Notes under the pieces: generated by a model
Databases searched by the model: none
Told to the model about the DNA's origin: nothing
The model's input: only the letters and a program-made list of their open reading frames with translations
Source: a virus
Reading direction: 5' to 3' (one strand)
Length of the DNA: 28,881 bases
IMG/VR virus record: IMGVR_UViG_3300005253_000683
Location: 1 to 28,881 of that record
Part shown: in pieces, positions 21,639 through 28,881 of the stretch
Layout: every line of letters starts with the position of its first letter
Numbering within the stretch: position 1 is the first letter of the stretch
Made by a program: the position numbers and the translations under genes

Positions 21639-21665
21639 GTCTGGATAAGGAATGACTACCCAGAC
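21639..21665. repeat. Iteron pair 1: GTCTGGATA, 9 bp, TACCCAGAC
   Basis: Facing copies of GTCTGG(A/G)TA with a 9-bp spacer. Together with pair 2 (same spacing) and further single and tandem copies it forms the iteron array. Confidence 0.7.
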
Positions 21666-21701
21666 ACGAAATCGGCTGTTGTGTATTGTTATCGCTATTT
21701 G

Positions 21702-21738
21702 GTCTGGATAGGTCTGGATAGAATTATTGTACCCAGAC
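21702..21738. repeat. Iteron cluster 2: two direct copies and one facing copy
   Basis: GGTCTGGATA twice in tandem (21701-21720), then a 9-bp spacer and TACCCAGAC (21730-21738). The facing pair repeats the geometry of pair 1. Confidence 0.7.
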
Positions 21739-22048
21739 GCTTGTAAATTGTTGATAATACTGGTCTTATAGTCTATTATGTCTATTATGTCTATATACCC
21801 TTTATAAACTATCTATTAGGTATATATAAGGAATATAGGGATTAGTAGGATAGTCGTTATAACCGTCAAATATATGTATATAGATAGTTTACAAGGTCTT
21901 ACCCAGACATAATCGCCTAAAATTGTTATAAGTCTTTATGCTATAAGGGTTTATCTGTGTCTATATAGATTTTTCTACCCAGACGTACCTGGACACAAGT
22001 GTGTTTTTGGTCTGATAGTATTGATTTTCATATCGGACGTGAGTGTTT

Positions 22049-22067
22049 TACCCAGACTTACCCAGAC
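22049..22067. repeat. Tandem iterons TACCCAGAC x2
   Basis: Two copies 10 bp apart (22049-22057, 22059-22067), one helical turn, following an ATCGGACG box at 22032. Confidence 0.65.
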
Positions 22068-22411: not shown

Positions 22412-22525
22412 TCACTTTCTTTTTGGGTGATAAAACATTCGGAGATACTCACGCCATAGCTGATTCGCTTCTGGTTGTGTGATATACTCCCACGATACTA
22501 ACTGCCTGAGTCTATTGCGTTTCAT
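22412..22525 (-). CDS. Small basic protein, 37 aa
   Basis: MKRNRLRQLVSWEYITQPEA, then NQLWREYLRMFYHPKRK. Basic and helical. First gene of the P1 transcript; its RK-stop is encoded by the ribosome box of the next gene. No strong Shine-Dalgarno (GTGAAGACT) before the ATG, so moderate confidence. Confidence 0.55.
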   Translation of the reverse strand: MKRNRLRQLVSWEYITQPEANQLWREYLRMFYHPKRK

Positions 22526-22582
22526 AGTCTTCACTGTTAAGCCCTCTCACACTCGCTGTGTTGGACGTTTGTTACTATGTAT

Positions 22583-22611
22583 AGTATAACACACACAAGG
22601 CACAAATGCAA
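22583..22611 (-). promoter_or_regulatory. Promoter P1
   Basis: TTGCAT (22606-22611), 17-bp spacer ending GTGT, TATACT (22583-22588). Drives the 37-aa and 54-aa genes. Confidence 0.85.
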
Positions 22612-22640
22612 GTCTTTTATTTTATTTTATGAATATTCTT

Positions 22641-22650
22641 TTATCGGACG
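22641..22650 (-). promoter_or_regulatory. TTATCGGACG box upstream of P1
   Basis: Same 30-bp distance from the -35 box as the copy at P2. Confidence 0.5.
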
Positions 22651-22851
22651 ATGAACAGGTCTGATGGGCGTTGACTGGTCTGATTCTCAATGCCCCCCGT
22701 GCCGACCCTTTGGTTATCGGATATAGGGGAGTGGACATCCCTTCCTACAAGATCCCAACACCCCGTTTTCGATGTTAGATAATCACTTAACAACTGCGGA
22801 CTCCAGCCAGAAAAAATATAAAATATTTTTCAGATTTATCCCCGAAAAGGT

Positions 22852-22871
22852 TCAGATTCCGACTAATCTGA
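22852..22871. promoter_or_regulatory. Operator-like palindrome before the rightward operon
   Basis: TCAGATT, 6-bp spacer, AATCTGA (perfect 7-bp arms), 24 bp before the first rightward gene. A third TCAGATT half-site lies at 22830-22836. Candidate repressor site for packaging and head genes. Confidence 0.45.
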
Positions 22872-22895
22872 CTGTAGTATAGAGGAACGTGTTTT

Positions 22896-23102
22896 ATGAA
22901 TATAACCGTAACTACACTTAAAGAAGGTGATGAATGTCATCTGTTCGCTGATATATTCATCCCTGACCGCAAATATTGTATGACAGCTAATCCGGTCACA
23001 TTTTCACGAAGGTACCTTTTTAATAAAGATACGCGTGATCCCGTATTGGTCATGTCTCTTGAAGATGCGAAGAAGATGGCTGAAGAGATATTGAAACTGT
23101 AA
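22896..23102 (+). CDS. Hypothetical protein, 68 aa
   Basis: First rightward gene. MNITVTTLKEGDECHLFADI, then a basic middle and a helical end (SLEDAKKMAEEILKL). Small alpha/beta protein with no recognised family. AGAGGAACG lies ahead of the ATG. Confidence 0.7.
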   Translation: MNITVTTLKEGDECHLFADIFIPDRKYCMTANPVTFSRRYLFNKDTRDPVLVMSLEDAKKMAEEILKL

Positions 23103-23127
23103 CCCCCACGTTAGAGAAGGAGATGAT

Positions 23128-23646
23128 ATGTTGATGAGCGAGTGTATTAAGATCTTAGAGAAAAATACCCCAGATTATTTCCAACATAGTAATTGGTTAA
23201 TAAATTGTCAACAGCCAATGGTTTGTAGTCTACACCTTGATAGCCTTATGGCCTCTATAGATATATTAGAAATTAAGGACAAAACAGACGATGAGATACA
23301 GAAACTCATCAAGAGTAGGATATTGACTACTCTCAGAGAAGCTATAACGAGATTGAGTCCTGAATATTTCACACCGAATCAAAAGAAGCAGAATGTGATT
23401 GAACCATTGGGCACTAATATTGTAGTTAGACCTATTGAAGAAACACCAGAAGGAGTACTCCTGCCTGAACGTGCACAAGATACCCGCGACTTTGGCATAG
23501 TATGGCTTGTTGGTCCTGATGTTAAGGTCCTCAAGCGTGGCGATCTGATTTTACTGCCATCCTGGAACGATGATAAATTGAAAGTAGATGGTATAGAATA
23601 CGTTATGCTTGCAGAGAAAAGCATAGGTGTGAGGATTTCCGAATGA
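23128..23646 (+). CDS. GroES-like co-chaperonin with helical N-terminal extension
   Basis: 172 aa. The C-terminal 83 residues follow the GroES/Cpn10 pattern: IEPLGTNIVVRPIEETPEGVL, LPERAQDTRDFGIVWLVGPDV, KRGDLILLPSW, VDGIEYVMLAEKSIGVRI. The first ~88 residues are an unrelated, mostly helical domain (SECIKILEKNTPDY; DEIQKLIKSRILTTLREAITRL) that I do not recognise. Phage GroES analogues such as T4 gp31 help the host GroEL fold the capsid protein, and the position at the start of the head operon fits. The mobile loop would be the GVLLPERAQDTRD stretch. AGGAGATGAT precedes the ATG. Confidence 0.85.
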   Translation: MLMSECIKILEKNTPDYFQHSNWLINCQQPMVCSLHLDSLMASIDILEIKDKTDDEIQKLIKSRILTTLREAITRLSPEYFTPNQKKQNVIEPLGTNIVVRPIEETPEGVLLPERAQDTRDFGIVWLVGPDVKVLKRGDLILLPSWNDDKLKVDGIEYVMLAEKSIGVRISE

Positions 23647-23846
23647 ACTATCAGCAGATAAGCGAAATCTACGACAGCTTCCCAGAGAATCAACAGAACA
23701 TACCCAAAGCAGAGTTTGTCAAACGGGCGTTGGCTACTCAGAGTGTAACCAAAGGCAGGGAGATTCTTAACGTGATGCTGGATGATAAGAAACGAGAGCG
23801 GGTCCAGCGAGCAGTTATTGACAGTGCGATAACCAGAGGAACATGA
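23643..23846 (+). CDS. Hypothetical protein, 67 aa
   Basis: Helical and basic (MNYQQISEIYDSFPENQQNI; KAEFVKRALATQSVTKGREIL). Overlaps the co-chaperonin stop (ATGA) and the next start. No family recognised. Confidence 0.7.
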   Translation: MNYQQISEIYDSFPENQQNIPKAEFVKRALATQSVTKGREILNVMLDDKKRERVQRAVIDSAITRGT

Positions 23847-23998
23847 TGAAGGTCCTAGAGCGATATGTACATCATTGGGAAGATATTATACCGCATCATG
23901 TTTACCAAAGACAAAGTGGGCGATTTACTTTATGTTGGTTAGGTTGGATAATAATATTTGATAAATTCTGGAAAAAGGAGATAACTAATGCCAGTTAG
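23843..23998 (+). CDS. Small protein with a hydrophobic stretch, 51 aa
   Basis: ATG overlaps the upstream stop (ATGA) with AGAGGA ahead. Starts MMKVLERYVHHWEDIIPHHV; the middle FTLCWLGWIIIF is hydrophobic enough for a short membrane segment, with a basic tail. Its end overlaps the next gene by 11 nt. Function unknown. Confidence 0.6.
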   Translation: MMKVLERYVHHWEDIIPHHVYQRQSGRFTLCWLGWIIIFDKFWKKEITNAS

Positions 23999-24341
23999 TG
24001 AAATATTTTCATGTGACAATAAAGGCAACCGTGTGCCAGCCGTTGTAGAAGCATCTGATCCCGTAGCTGCGAGCGGAATAACATTAACGCTTACTACTTC
24101 TGGTGAGGATTATACACAGACATTGGATGCTGGTCAGATGTATATTATAACATTTGTGGGTACAGCGGGTAAAGTAATGCTTGCGAGTATAACGGGAGTG
24201 ACATCCACGGCGGCAAATGTTGAATGGATATTTATGGCCAATGTTAATTATATCTTCCGTATGCCACTTGGCAAAACTACGTTATATTTTGAGGCTAATG
24301 AAAGTAGTAAGGTGGCGTATGTAAGGAAACTTGCAGGATGA
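23988..24341 (+). CDS. Putative small structural protein (beta-rich), 117 aa
   Basis: Thr/Ser/Val-rich with alternating strands (GITLTLTTSGEDYTQTLDAG; YIITFVGTAGKVMLASITGV; KTTLYFEANESSKVAYV). Looks like a single beta-sandwich domain, as in head-decoration or neck/tail proteins. Assignment rests on composition and position. GGAGATAACTA lies ahead of the ATG. Confidence 0.5.
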   Translation: MPVSEIFSCDNKGNRVPAVVEASDPVAASGITLTLTTSGEDYTQTLDAGQMYIITFVGTAGKVMLASITGVTSTAANVEWIFMANVNYIFRMPLGKTTLYFEANESSKVAYVRKLAG

Positions 24342-24964
24342 AAAAATGGATTTTGTCAGTGTTAATATTGATTTTCTTGTTTGCAGGGTGTTCCCTAAAT
24401 AGGAAACCCAGTCTATATGAGAATATGGTCAACGCTTCGGTGGCAATACGTAATGATTATGGTTTTGGATCTGGTGTGTTTATAGATGATAATGTTGTTC
24501 TAACCGCTGCACATGTTTTAGAACAACCAGATCTTATCGTAGAACTTGTTGATGGTACTGTATTAGAAGTTGATGATTTTTATATCGACAATAAAGAAGA
24601 TGTTGGTTTTATATTTATAAATGCTAACGAACTCTGTATCGCCAAGATTACGGCATCGCCGGGAGATATTGGAGATATTGGAGATACTGTATATCTTGTG
24701 GGATCTCCACATGAACCATCTTTGAAATTTACTATAACTAAAGGAATACTTTCACACCTTAGTAGAGATATATGGGAATGGAAAGATCTTTTACAGACTG
24801 ATGCTGAGGGTGCTTTCGGTAGTAGCGGTGGTCCATTATATGATTCTGAAGGTCGGGTGATTGGTGTTTGTGTTGCTGGACCAATTCCGGGTGGTGGTGT
24901 TACTTTATGTGAAAGTGCTAAAAGTATTTTAGAGGCATATGAAAGGTGTATGAATGCCCGCTAA
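24338..24964 (+). CDS. Lipoprotein trypsin-like serine protease (HtrA-type fold)
   Basis: 208 aa. Signal peptide MKKWILSVLILIFLFAGC with a lipobox ending in C18, so it should be exported and lipid-anchored. The protease core shows the catalytic triad: H59 in VLTAAHVL, D88 in KEDVGF, S163 in GSSGGPLYD, with GSGVFIDDN before the His. There is no PDZ domain. It sits between a structural gene and the terminase genes but is an envelope protein, so it is unlikely to be a virion part. Exclusion of other phages, envelope modification or cleavage of a host factor are possibilities. Starts by ATGA overlap. Confidence 0.88.
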   Translation: MKKWILSVLILIFLFAGCSLNRKPSLYENMVNASVAIRNDYGFGSGVFIDDNVVLTAAHVLEQPDLIVELVDGTVLEVDDFYIDNKEDVGFIFINANELCIAKITASPGDIGDIGDTVYLVGSPHEPSLKFTITKGILSHLSRDIWEWKDLLQTDAEGAFGSSGGPLYDSEGRVIGVCVAGPIPGGGVTLCESAKSILEAYERCMNAR

Positions 24965-25379
24965 AGACACGGAAAAAAACAATCACGGTAAAAAAGTAGT
25001 AGCTGGTAAACTACTCTCAAAGTTCATTCGTGAGATCGCCAGTGAAGAATATGACGATCCAATCATCAAGGCCAGAGGTGAAGAGGCCGTGATGGTGACT
25101 AAAGCCGAGGCCATCGCAAGGCATATATGGAACGTGGCTCTTGGTTATGTTGAAGAAATTGATATATACAAGGATGGAGTTAAGGTAGGCGTTAAACTTG
25201 AAACTCATAGACCAGATAAATGGGCAATTGGTATTATCTGGGATCGAATGGAAGGCAGAGTAGGTCAGGCAGATGCCAAGAGTGGCAATAATAAGGCATC
25301 GTTGGCTGATAAGGTATCTGAGCAGGGTAAGAAACGCTTGAGCCAGATAGCGAAGAGTTCTTTGACAAGTAAAGAATGA
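24954..25379 (+). CDS. Putative terminase small subunit
   Basis: 141 aa. Basic N-terminus, a helical region (AIARHIWNVALGYVEEI), RPDKWAIGIIWDRMEGRVGQ and a charged tail. Placement directly before, and overlapping, the large terminase gene (ATGA) and the R-P-D-K-W...EGRVGQ pattern suggest the small subunit, which selects phage DNA. No clear N-terminal HTH is seen, so it could be an accessory DNA-binding protein. Confidence 0.6.
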   Translation: MPAKDTEKNNHGKKVVAGKLLSKFIREIASEEYDDPIIKARGEEAVMVTKAEAIARHIWNVALGYVEEIDIYKDGVKVGVKLETHRPDKWAIGIIWDRMEGRVGQADAKSGNNKASLADKVSEQGKKRLSQIAKSSLTSKE

Positions 25380-27295
25380 TTGACGTAGCCGAAAAACTCA
25401 AACCGGAACTACGAACACCGTTTCCTAACGTGCCTGAGACATGGAAATGCATCAGGACTGGGTTGGTCGTTCCAAAACATGAGATAGAAAATATTGAATA
25501 TCGATCTCAAGTTTTACGTGATGCTGAATATGATAAGGGTTTTCAGAATGATCTGATGACGGCGAGTCGAGAATCTCTTTTGTTTTGGGTGAATACGTTT
25601 GTTTGGACATATCATCAATTTGATGTGGATGGTGACACTGGTGAGCGACACGAAGCAAAAATAGCACACCATCCATTTATCCCTTGGGAGATTCAGGATA
25701 TTCTTTTCGAGAGATTAGTATGGCATCTTGCTAATGCTAAAGATATTTTGATTAATAAATCTCGTGATATGGGTGCCTCATGGATATGTACCATATTTTT
25801 GCACTGGTTATGGTTATTCAGACCTGATTCACAACTTCTTGAACTGTCGCGTACCGAACCGTATGTGGACCAAGCCGGTAACATGAAAGCATTGTTTCAG
25901 AAACATGATTATTTGAATACCTGGTTGCCAGAATGGATGTTACCGCCAATGGTCGGCGTAGGGCAAAAATATCGCACCAAAATGCACCTCTATAACATTC
26001 TCAACGGTTCTTGTATTGATGGTGAATCAACTACTGAGCATGCAGCATCGGGTGATAGACGATTAGTTGCCTTGTTAGATGAATTCGCTAAGGTGAAACA
26101 TGCTCGATTAATGCGGAGTGCGACACGAGATGCTGCCCTGGTGCGTATTGTGAACTCGACTGTTTCTACTCCCGGTAGTGAATATTCTAAATGGAAGAAC
26201 GATGGAACGATTATAGTGTTCCCATTAATGTGGTGGGATCATCCAGATAAAGGCAGACATAGACATGTTGTTCAAAATCCAGTGACAAATGCATGGAAGA
26301 TCAGATCGCCCTGGTATGATGTTGAAGATAAAAATAGATCGCCACGCGAAATGGCAAGAGAAATTGATGCTGAAGATCTTGAAGCCGGTTCAACATTCTT
26401 CACTGTAACGAATATTGATAAACATGTAGCAATATTTGGCAGATCGCCTAAGACACGTTGGGATATTGATTTGGCAAAGGGAGTAGCCAATGATAGTATT
26501 CCAATGATTCTGAAGAAAAAAGACCTGAAGAAGATAACATGTAAGAGGGCGGTCAAGGGCAAACTCAAGGTTTGGGTTAATTTAATAAACGGTAGGTTGG
26601 ATCAGAATCTTGATTATGTTATTGGTTTCGATTTGTCTAAAGGTCAGGGTGCTTCTAATTCAGTCGGATCAGTCAAGTGTCGGCAAACTGGTGAGAAAGT
26701 AGTTGAATGGGCTGATGCTAATACACCACCGTATGAGATGGCTCGTGTTGGTATAGCTTTGGCTTTGTGGGTTGGTGGTAGAAAGAAACTTCCATTTTTG
26801 AAGTGGGAGATGAATGGTGATCCTGGTTATGATTTTGGTAAGATAGTTGTTAAACAGTTTCATTATCCATACTATTATCGTGATGTTAAGGTTGGTAATA
26901 TTAGGGATAAGAAAACTAAAAGGTATGGTTGGCATAATAATCCAAAATCTAAAGGTGAGCTTCTCAATGCGTATGATCGAGCATTGGCTCATGGTGGGTA
27001 TATCAACCATTCTATAAAAGCACTTGAGGAAGCTAAGACTTATATTTACAATGATGATGGGAGTATTGGTCCCGCGTGTTTGGTGGAAGAGAGTTCTTCC
27101 GCTAAGAAAACACATGGTGATAGAACGATGGCTGACGCGTTGACCATAGAGGACAAATATTATAAGATGAGGAATCGTGCGGAAGCATCTGAATCACGGA
27201 ATGATATGCGGACAGCAGCAGGTAGGAAAGTAGCATTAAAACAAAAACGTGCCAAGCCGAAGGGGTGGCGATCTAAGTTTGATTTTAGGGCATAG
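25376..27295 (+). CDS. Terminase large subunit (ATPase-nuclease DNA packaging motor)
   Basis: 639 aa. ATPase domain: Walker A-type NKSRDMGASW near 127-136, Walker B with catalytic Glu VALLDEF near 231-237, coupling motif near STVSTPGS. RNase H-like nuclease domain: D419 (VIGFDLSKG), D482 region (NGDPGYDFG) and D582/D587 (HGDRTMADAL). It translocates and cuts DNA at the portal. The C-terminus is very basic. Normal length for the family. The stop is TAG. Confidence 0.95.
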   Translation: MIDVAEKLKPELRTPFPNVPETWKCIRTGLVVPKHEIENIEYRSQVLRDAEYDKGFQNDLMTASRESLLFWVNTFVWTYHQFDVDGDTGERHEAKIAHHPFIPWEIQDILFERLVWHLANAKDILINKSRDMGASWICTIFLHWLWLFRPDSQLLELSRTEPYVDQAGNMKALFQKHDYLNTWLPEWMLPPMVGVGQKYRTKMHLYNILNGSCIDGESTTEHAASGDRRLVALLDEFAKVKHARLMRSATRDAALVRIVNSTVSTPGSEYSKWKNDGTIIVFPLMWWDHPDKGRHRHVVQNPVTNAWKIRSPWYDVEDKNRSPREMAREIDAEDLEAGSTFFTVTNIDKHVAIFGRSPKTRWDIDLAKGVANDSIPMILKKKDLKKITCKRAVKGKLKVWVNLINGRLDQNLDYVIGFDLSKGQGASNSVGSVKCRQTGEKVVEWADANTPPYEMARVGIALALWVGGRKKLPFLKWEMNGDPGYDFGKIVVKQFHYPYYYRDVKVGNIRDKKTKRYGWHNNPKSKGELLNAYDRALAHGGYINHSIKALEEAKTYIYNDDGSIGPACLVEESSSAKKTHGDRTMADALTIEDKYYKMRNRAEASESRNDMRTAAGRKVALKQKRAKPKGWRSKFDFRA

Positions 27296-27297
27296 AG

Positions 27298-27468
27298 ATG
27301 GCTGAAGTATTTTGCGGCGGTTGTAAAGAATATAAAGGAACTGAGAAAGTTCCTAATTCAAAAAGTACAGCTTGGATGGATGCAAGTCGCCCAAAATGTG
27401 CGATTGGTAAGAGTGCGGATAAACAAGGCTATCATTGTATAGATTATAAACCTAACGAGGATGATTAA
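27298..27468 (+). CDS. Small four-Cys zinc protein, 56 aa
   Basis: MAEVFCGGCKEYKGTEKVPN, then RPKCAIGKS and GYHCIDYKP: Cys pairs CGGC and two later Cys make a probable zinc site. Starts 3 nt after the terminase stop, with AGGG ahead, and its stop overlaps the portal start (TAATG). Function unknown; small zinc proteins between TerL and portal occur in other phages. Confidence 0.75.
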   Translation: MAEVFCGGCKEYKGTEKVPNSKSTAWMDASRPKCAIGKSADKQGYHCIDYKPNEDD

Positions 27469-28881
27469 TGCCTGAGTATTTTACTCCAAACAAATTTGCC
27501 CTTGCAGTTAAGCAGGGATTCGAGAGAAACAAACGACATCGCCGAGCGAGAGCGATGTTCATTAAGGAATATGTAGGCCGCTATTACGCCAGTGAATATG
27601 GATTAACCGGTGAAGAACCTATCAATCTGATATTCAATACTATTCGTGCGACAGTGCCTAATCTTGTGATGAAATCTGGTATTAACAAGGTATCAACAGA
27701 AATTGTGGAATACGAACAATACGCTTATTTGCTCGGACTTGCATTAGATAAGGGTGACAAACAAATAAAGATTAAAGATACATTGCGTGCTGCTATTGTT
27801 GATGCGTTCTTTATGATGGGTATAGCTAAAACTGGTTTAGCGGGCGGTGGCCAGATACTAAACTTCGGTGACATCTTCATTGATGAAGGCCAGGTGTATA
27901 CTGATCTTGTTGATTTTGATGATTTCACTGCCGATCCATCGTGTAAAGATTATCGCAAGGCAGCTTTTCTTGGTGACAGGAATCGAGTCCCGCGACAGAT
28001 TTTGTTGGATGACGATGAGTTTGATCATGATCTCGTGATGAAAATACCAAAATCAATTCATCCTAATGCTAAAGATAAAATTGAATCCCTTAGTAAGAGA
28101 AACTTTAGTGATAGTGAGATGTACACGCTTCAGGATTTTGTAGATGTCGTAGAAGTATTTGTTCCTGGGGCTAATGCGTTAATTACTATACCAGACCCAT
28201 CTCAGTTAATTCTTCCTGAATATCTTGCTGCGCGTGATTATTATGGCCCAAAGGAAGGACCATATTCCATACTTGCCTTGACACAACCTGTGCCTGGTAA
28301 TCCGTTCCCGGTAGCTCCGATTGGGATTCATTATGATCTGCATGTGATGGCCAATAAAATGATGGTCAAACAAATGGACCAGGCTGATCGCGAAAAGAGT
28401 CTTGGTATTGTAGATCCAGCAGGTGCCGATGAAGCTGAAGATATAAGAACTACTGAAGATGGTGGAATGGTGATGGGTAATCCTGATACTGTTAAAGTGA
28501 TTACTTTCGGCGGCAATAATCAAAAAAGCGAAGCCATGCTTCAACAGTGTCAGATATGGCATAATTATATGTCAGGTAATCCAGACCAGATGTCTGGTCT
28601 GGTATCTAATGCCGAATCAGCGACACAAGCTAATATTTTGCAAGCTAACGCTACTATTACTATTGAAGATTCACGCGGTATGATTTATGATTTTGCAGCG
28701 GATACTGCCGGGAAGAGAGCTTGGTATATACATACTGATCCATTTATGGACATTATGCTTTCCAGAAGGAAACCCGGTGGTGAGAATGTTCAGTTGCATT
28801 TAACACCAGAACAAAGAGATGGTGATTTTCTTGACTATACATTTACTTTGAAAGCAAGATCGATGTCACGCCTTGATCCGG
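27468..28881 (+). CDS. Portal protein, partial (runs off window)
   Basis: At least 471 codons without a stop. MPEYFTPNKFALAVKQGFER, then INLIFNTIRATVPNLVMKSG near residues 47-66, typical of the first conserved portal block. The stem-region pattern IHYDLHVMANKMMVKQMDQADREK lies near residues 286-309, and NAESATQANILQANA near 380-394 matches the 'seTAt' block of portals. It forms the dodecameric ring at the DNA-entry vertex and docks the terminase. The C-terminus is missing. Confidence 0.88.
   Translation, partial: MPEYFTPNKFALAVKQGFERNKRHRRARAMFIKEYVGRYYASEYGLTGEEPINLIFNTIRATVPNLVMKSGINKVSTEIVEYEQYAYLLGLALDKGDKQIKIKDTLRAAIVDAFFMMGIAKTGLAGGGQILNFGDIFIDEGQVYTDLVDFDDFTADPSCKDYRKAAFLGDRNRVPRQILLDDDEFDHDLVMKIPKSIHPNAKDKIESLSKRNFSDSEMYTLQDFVDVVEVFVPGANALITIPDPSQLILPEYLAARDYYGPKEGPYSILALTQPVPGNPFPVAPIGIHYDLHVMANKMMVKQMDQADREKSLGIVDPAGADEAEDIRTTEDGGMVMGNPDTVKVITFGGNNQKSEAMLQQCQIWHNYMSGNPDQMSGLVSNAESATQANILQANATITIEDSRGMIYDFAADTAGKRAWYIHTDPFMDIMLSRRKPGGENVQLHLTPEQRDGDFLDYTFTLKARSMSRLDP

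Follow-up and report, generated by a model that had tools for sequence, protein, structure and literature searches.

A predicted membrane-anchored, PDZ-less HtrA-like serine protease encoded beside the terminase genes in most members of a phage lineage

Proteases of the HtrA family are described as carrying at least one C-terminal PDZ domain, and the PDZ domain of DegS as being inhibitory, such that its removal raises proteolytic activity (both in passages of PMC11642142). Trypsin-like proteases of phages are already known, as annotations only, in the libraries used in this study, and a section of PMC10783043 also names such a serine protease for the cluster N alphaproteobacterial phages. A further relevant system is the lipoprotein Llp of phage T5, which, according to part of PMC9586334, targets the receptor FhuA from within the periplasm and causes superinfection exclusion. 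Among the papers listed by literature searches on phage trypsin/HtrA-like or envelope proteases, exclusion lipoproteins, SPFH proteins and DegS there was no functional study of such a protein, a result which does not prove absence from print.

The stretch of viral DNA analyzed here, hereafter the window (28,881 nucleotides; IMG/VR record IMGVR_UViG_3300005253_000683), encodes a protein of this type:

24338..24964, + strand: gene for a predicted membrane-anchored, PDZ-less HtrA-like serine protease of 208 amino acids (open reading frame list, Pfam, model and fold search)
24512..24514, + strand: codon of catalytic His59 (H in 43/43 alignment rows that have a residue at this column)
24599..24601, + strand: codon of catalytic Asp88 (D in 44/45 rows that have a residue at this column)
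24824..24826, + strand: codon of catalytic Ser163 (S in 47/47 rows)

The extent and strand of this gene agree with the first-pass annotation, and the complete His-Asp-Ser triad reported there is borne out by an alignment of 47 homologues, of which six are 5'-truncated and in which the sole exception at Asp88 is an E in Sinorhizobium phage AP-16-3. Pfam searches identified a Trypsin_2 domain at residues 44-177 (E=3.4e-22; 80.2 bits against a cut-off of 27.6), with the Pfam Trypsin domain likewise matching the reading frame, while the PHROG matches were to 11383 (annotated as of unknown function; 2.1e-20) and 9683 (named 'protease'; 2.7e-19). In sequence comparisons with solved structures, HtrA proteases came out nearest, the best match belonging to the DegQ family (E=1.2e-12). 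An AlphaFold2 model of the monomer generated with 26 aligned members as input attained a mean pLDDT of 91.6 and returned DegS without its PDZ domain as its top Foldseek match (E=9.7e-14); among the matches listed, VIA-align comparisons with HtrA, AlgW, DegP, DegQ and DegS gave Z values of 23.4-27.3, with VIA-align matches spanning 172-189 residues. The predicted fold is closest to the HtrA type, and the 'HtrA protease' of Rhizobium phage AF3 and a 'periplasmic serine protease' of a podovirus are among the named matches obtained with viral models. Matches to the PADLOC models RT-Protease_XI (8.8e-10) and LmuA (1.9e-8) were taken to reflect a shared trypsin domain only, and assignment as a defence protein was rejected.

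The window protein, which has a chymotrypsin-type domain with a His-Asp-Ser triad, as in HtrA proteases, terminates in the model right after the protease domain, and no PDZ domain was present at E<=0.01 among the families found in 26/26 protease members. The NCBIfam models for DegP, DegQ and DegS all scored below their curated cut-offs (best 83.3 bits against 416.2, for degP_htrA_DO; 62.1 bits against 422.95 for DegS). The protein is referred to as HtrA-like because it has an HtrA catalytic domain but is missing the defining PDZ. With DegS and AlgW, the membrane-anchored regulatory HtrA proteases, it shares the protease-domain fold, the triad and a predicted N-terminal hydrophobic anchor, yet it differs from them by its lack of a PDZ domain and by the location of its gene within a packaging operon. 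With the periplasmic DegP and DegQ, to whose solved structures it is 25-31% identical, it has the protease domain in common, but it has none of their PDZ domains. The annotated phage trypsin-like peptidases (PHROGs 9683 and 11383; Rhizobium and Sinorhizobium phages) resemble it in possessing an export-type N-terminus and a trypsin domain; those of the Rhizobium and Sinorhizobium phages are 23.5-26.5% identical to the window protease, and those of Rhizobium phages are located among other genes, with no adjoining terminase in the stretch viewed.

Several INPHARED records with HtrA matches, under the names of Salmonella, Acinetobacter, Listeria, Enterococcus and Staphylococcus (e.g., AGRM01000002.1 and CAKLQF020000002.1), look from their length and annotation like pieces of bacterial chromosome; since such records are filed as phage, counts of phage HtrA genes would be inflated. 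For the window itself, contamination by a chromosomal degP or degS gene was considered and rejected, as the gene overlaps its neighbours and is found in the same place in related phages.

Two features of the N-terminus bear on where the protease may act:

24338..24400, + strand: hydrophobic N-terminal segment, residues 1-21, putatively for export and anchoring (Kyte-Doolittle scan; helix 2-21 in the model)
24389..24391, + strand: codon of Cys18, a candidate lipobox cysteine that is rare in the family (pattern fit)

A hydrophobic segment near the start was observed in 41/41 full-length N-termini (15-residue mean Kyte-Doolittle values of 1.74-3.38), in a scan that left out six 5'-cut proteins, among them that of locus L041, and for which the start codons of some rows (L101, L103, L108 and L054) were chosen by the analyst. 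The net charge of the 41 N-termini is higher on the N side of the segment in 28, equal in eight and lower in five, a bias that, taken overall, points to a catalytic domain in the periplasm, with the topology being ambiguous for the 13 of 41 that are without it. The first-pass proposal of an exported trypsin-like protease within the packaging operon is therefore upheld as regards the hydrophobic N-terminus, export itself being predicted. Its description of a 'clear lipobox' stands to the extent that LFAG-C18 matches a pattern of the PROSITE PS51257 type. However, this pattern is fitted in just 4/41 N-termini, namely those of the window protein, the near-duplicates L039 and L040, and L043, and in the closest relatives (75% identical) Gly-Phe replaces the Gly-Cys of the window. 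The window lipobox may be a chance occurrence, because 20/40 N-termini possess some Cys in residues 5-30 (three of these 20 deriving from untrimmed reading frames). Lipoprotein anchoring is thus weakly supported, and, given the four fits, 'membrane-anchored', as a prediction, suits the whole family, and 'lipoprotein' perhaps the window protein only.

The protease gene overlaps both of its neighbours in an array of genes on the same strand:

23128..23646, + strand: protein ending in a Cpn10 (GroES-like) domain, which an N-terminal extension precedes (PF00166, E=1.9e-9)
23643..23846, + strand: small gene G6 of the same operon as the protease (open reading frame list), also found beside the locus in relatives
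23988..24341, + strand: UP1, a 117-residue beta protein whose stop overlaps the protease start (ATGA; model pLDDT 85.1)
24954..25379, + strand: TERS, named from its place at the small-terminase position; it overlaps the stop of the protease gene
25376..27295, + strand: large terminase subunit, TerL (PHROG 2, E=4.9e-14)
27468..28881, + strand: portal protein, running off the window (relative in record G003)

The model of UP1 had no match in the PDB at E<=0.001 (best 1.7e-3), the TERS product had no family match in profile searches, and the portal relative in G003 shows a weak SU10_portal match that is under the curated cut-off. The gene had been placed 'between head and terminase genes', which is imprecise: its neighbours are UP1 and the gene in the small-terminase position, and the portal and putative capsid genes are located downstream of the large terminase, while the Cpn10-domain gene sits upstream of the packaging genes. 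Its position in the operon suggests that the protease is made late in infection. Promoter-like matches within 22500-25500 number 16 against a shuffle mean of 9.3 (sd 3.1; both strands), and one of these lies on the + strand at 24261-24288, inside UP1 and 50 bp ahead of the protease gene, so that the protease may have a promoter of its own; the two terminator-like matches in the same interval are both on the - strand. Further upstream, at 21657-22067, six exact + strand copies of TACCCAGAC (0.09 expected from shuffles) occur in a long intergenic stretch separating two divergent gene blocks. These repeats are iteron-like and perhaps mark a replication origin or control region.

As regards its distribution, a search with the large terminase returned 67 loci from viral contigs. 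When loci with TerL identity of at least 45% were collapsed at 98%, 48 groups were obtained, of which we retained the 33 whose upstream sequence extends to 2,500 bp or more. A homologous protease is encoded in 27 of these 33 groups (the window's own contig being among the 27), and in 24 of them no more than 1.2 kb separates its end from the large terminase gene, the exceptions being L043, L054 and L076. Altering the upstream requirement gave 32/40 carriers at 1,300 bp and 17/23 at 4,000 bp. The protease of L031 was missed by tblastn and picked up by eye and by the family HMM, which was built from members and therefore matches those members by construction. The six groups without the protease are L017/L018, L021, L046, L049/L064, L062 and L070/L072/L073/L074. 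In 21 longer records, a Trypsin_2 search yielded one match each in 14 and none in seven, including G005, G006 and G009, which at 47.9-49.6 kb are about the size of the longest records. The gap between the protease and the small-terminase position ranges from -68 to +593 bp in most relatives, reaching 2.8 kb in L054 and 3.0 kb in L043, and in many relatives other small genes intervene, so the tight overlap with TERS seen in the window is not universal. The protease is consequently no rare oddity in this phage lineage. TerL relatives on genome contigs derive from MAGs of several phyla, four of them having 39-59% TerL identity on contigs of 31-51 kb.

A tblastn search of 50,697 phage records with the putative capsid protein gave nothing at E<=0.001, megablast with a 16.4 kb stretch of the window likewise gave no match, and the large terminase found distant partial matches only, in 132 records, none covering 80%.

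Comparison of close relatives indicates that the gene comes and goes. In L021, which at UP1, TERS and portal (91, 92 and 96% identical) is among the nearest relatives that the window has, the UP1 gene continues via the same ATGA directly into the terminase genes, with flanks of 86.4 and 86.6% identical DNA and nothing between them. Phages with 79-87% identical TerL carry either the window type of protease (55-75% identity) or a second type (25-30% identity), and a window-type protease (56-61% identity) is also present in phages with TerL identity of ~30%, where it directly follows the portal gene. The dN/dS ratios (NG86) are 0.09-0.33 in 50 of 87 protease pairs, i.e., those above 60% identity, these ratios being rough since dS exceeds 1 in most of the 50 pairs. 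The protease gene is under purifying selection and, as judged from these sequence comparisons, it is functional, exchanged, at times absent and kept near the packaging genes. The term 'moron' is consequently apt in one respect, namely the clean presence or absence between related phages that the empty site in L021 exemplifies, but it sits less well with a homologue in 27/33 groups and an overlap with both neighbours. In the protease-less L046 (2397-5156) and L049 (2319-5369), fibre-like genes for 919 and 1016 amino acids, respectively, are situated between UP1 and the small-terminase position, the junction of UP1 and the small-terminase gene thus taking different cargo.

The location of the gene in the packaging region, its position directly after the portal gene in the lineage of L007, L008 and L014, and the lack of any other recognisable head protease in the set of G003 late proteins tested would fit a prohead maturation protease of a new fold. 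Such a role is nevertheless highly improbable and was rejected, on account of the export-type N-terminus and of protease-less relatives in which the head proteins are conserved. The records of L018 (36.6 kb) and L021 (37.0 kb), both of which may be fragments, contain no Trypsin_2 match, and their putative capsid proteins match that of the carrier G003 along the full length of 372 residues with identities of 88.7 and 89.0%, compared with 79-89% among carriers with TerL identity of at least 79% ('capsid' and 'scaffold' being named by position and size, with no family model above cut-off or E<0.003). The earlier view that this is unlikely to be a prohead protease is in agreement with these data. 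An envelope role, rather than one in head building, is probable, because the protein is apparently exported and anchored and most relatives carry it.

Several envelope-directed functions may be envisaged. In line with the first-pass suggestion that it alters the host surface or blocks other phages, the anchored protease might cleave a receptor on the cell surface, or some envelope component on which adsorption or DNA entry depends. The infected cell would thereby be protected by superinfection exclusion, and the progeny, once released, would not be caught on debris. The predicted envelope location fits this idea, as do the swaps of alleles among close phages and the presence or absence of the gene, which are expected of a host-interaction trait, and T5 Llp acting on FhuA (part of PMC9586334) provides a precedent. 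Llp is likened to the protease by description, as a phage-encoded lipoprotein that works in the periplasm, where the protease, itself a candidate lipoprotein, is predicted to act, although Llp is described in that part as binding and jamming FhuA and not as an enzyme. Against this, the gene lies among packaging genes and is thus probably expressed late, while many phages make their exclusion proteins early (as stated in the same part of PMC9586334), and a term search of one review (PMC11436027) found no occurrence of protease, proteolytic or lipoprotein. Both protection of the infected cell and sparing of the progeny are accordingly regarded as conceivable but rather unlikely. A small protein with a lipobox-like start is encoded in the same lineage on the opposite strand near a primase-like gene (L085 3889-4365 in G003, with a counterpart in G004); the G003 copy has no family match.

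The suggested late expression would equally suit an aid to lysis and egress, in which envelope tethers or surface-layer proteins would be broken down by the protease, making it easier for the cell to burst. In the Rhizobium phages RHph_TM3_3_14B and RHph_X2_25, a distant relative of the gene follows an annotated lysozyme gene at a distance of about 2.9 kb. No lysis gene was, however, recognised beside the protease in the window lineage or among the G003 proteins tested, and several related phages are without the protease, which leaves this explanation improbable. A virion-borne protease for entry or surface digestion appears slightly less probable again. Collagen-like repeats occur in some phage fibres, and the L041 reading frame (3-767, cut at the contig end) has a collagen-like Gly-rich repeat directly before its trypsin domain. 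This repeat is found at one locus only: besides its own contig, a scan with L041 found a single relative, in which the match begins at query residue 43 and the repeat is missing, and the 41 full-length N-termini carry an export-type segment instead.

A further indication of function may come from genes that accompany the protease. A Cpn10 match was obtained in 9/35 related records (eight over the cut-off), the window's own contig being one of the nine; G012 and G013 have Cpn10 but no protease, and in G007 the two lie far apart. HflK/C-like SPFH proteins are encoded in eight loci, six of which have the protease within about 1.1 kb and two of which are without it in the sequence covered. These SPFH/Band_7 proteins are short (~180 residues) and encoded near the terminase genes (L054 855-1397; L062 3300-3824; further loci L103, L100, L057, L101, L026 and L029), and a search with that of L054 matched only its own contig. 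SPFH proteins of other phages have been noted previously without a tested role (parts of PMC8540360 and PMC13239085). The Cpn10 and SPFH neighbours suggest a quality-control theme in some relatives.

The explanation that we tentatively prefer, with a confidence somewhat short of even, is that the protein is a membrane-tethered, PDZ-less protease of the HtrA/DegS type, made late, which cleaves envelope proteins in the periplasm. According to this proposal, the protease would be synthesised late in infection along with the products of the packaging genes, and would be exported such that its catalytic domain, judging by the charge bias, faces the periplasm. The chief pointer to the mechanism is the missing PDZ domain: because that of DegS is inhibitory, the protease would, by analogy with DegS, probably not be gated by peptide. 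It may then cut envelope proteins of the virus-loaded cell, and envelope proteostasis or stress signalling could in this way serve the phage until lysis, the candidate targets being a stress regulator, misfolded protein, a receptor or an envelope tether. Evidence that runs counter to this proposal is the lack of the protease in 6/33 groups, the ambiguous topology of the 13 N-termini mentioned above, the absence of Cpn10 from 26/35 records and its occurrence without or far from the protease in others, and the two SPFH loci that have no protease in the sequence covered. A more specific version, which seems distinctly unlikely, is that of a constitutively active DegS mimic that would initiate the cleavage of host anti-sigma factors and so turn on the host envelope-stress regulon late, in some relatives possibly using a phage-encoded HflK/C-like SPFH protein as a membrane platform.

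Described here is a selected, apparently membrane-anchored, PDZ-less protease that is encoded next to the terminase genes in most of one phage lineage. The clean presence/absence pairs among its members make the idea of an envelope role testable. If the protease acts on the host envelope, it would represent a proteolytic route by which phages control the periplasm late in infection.
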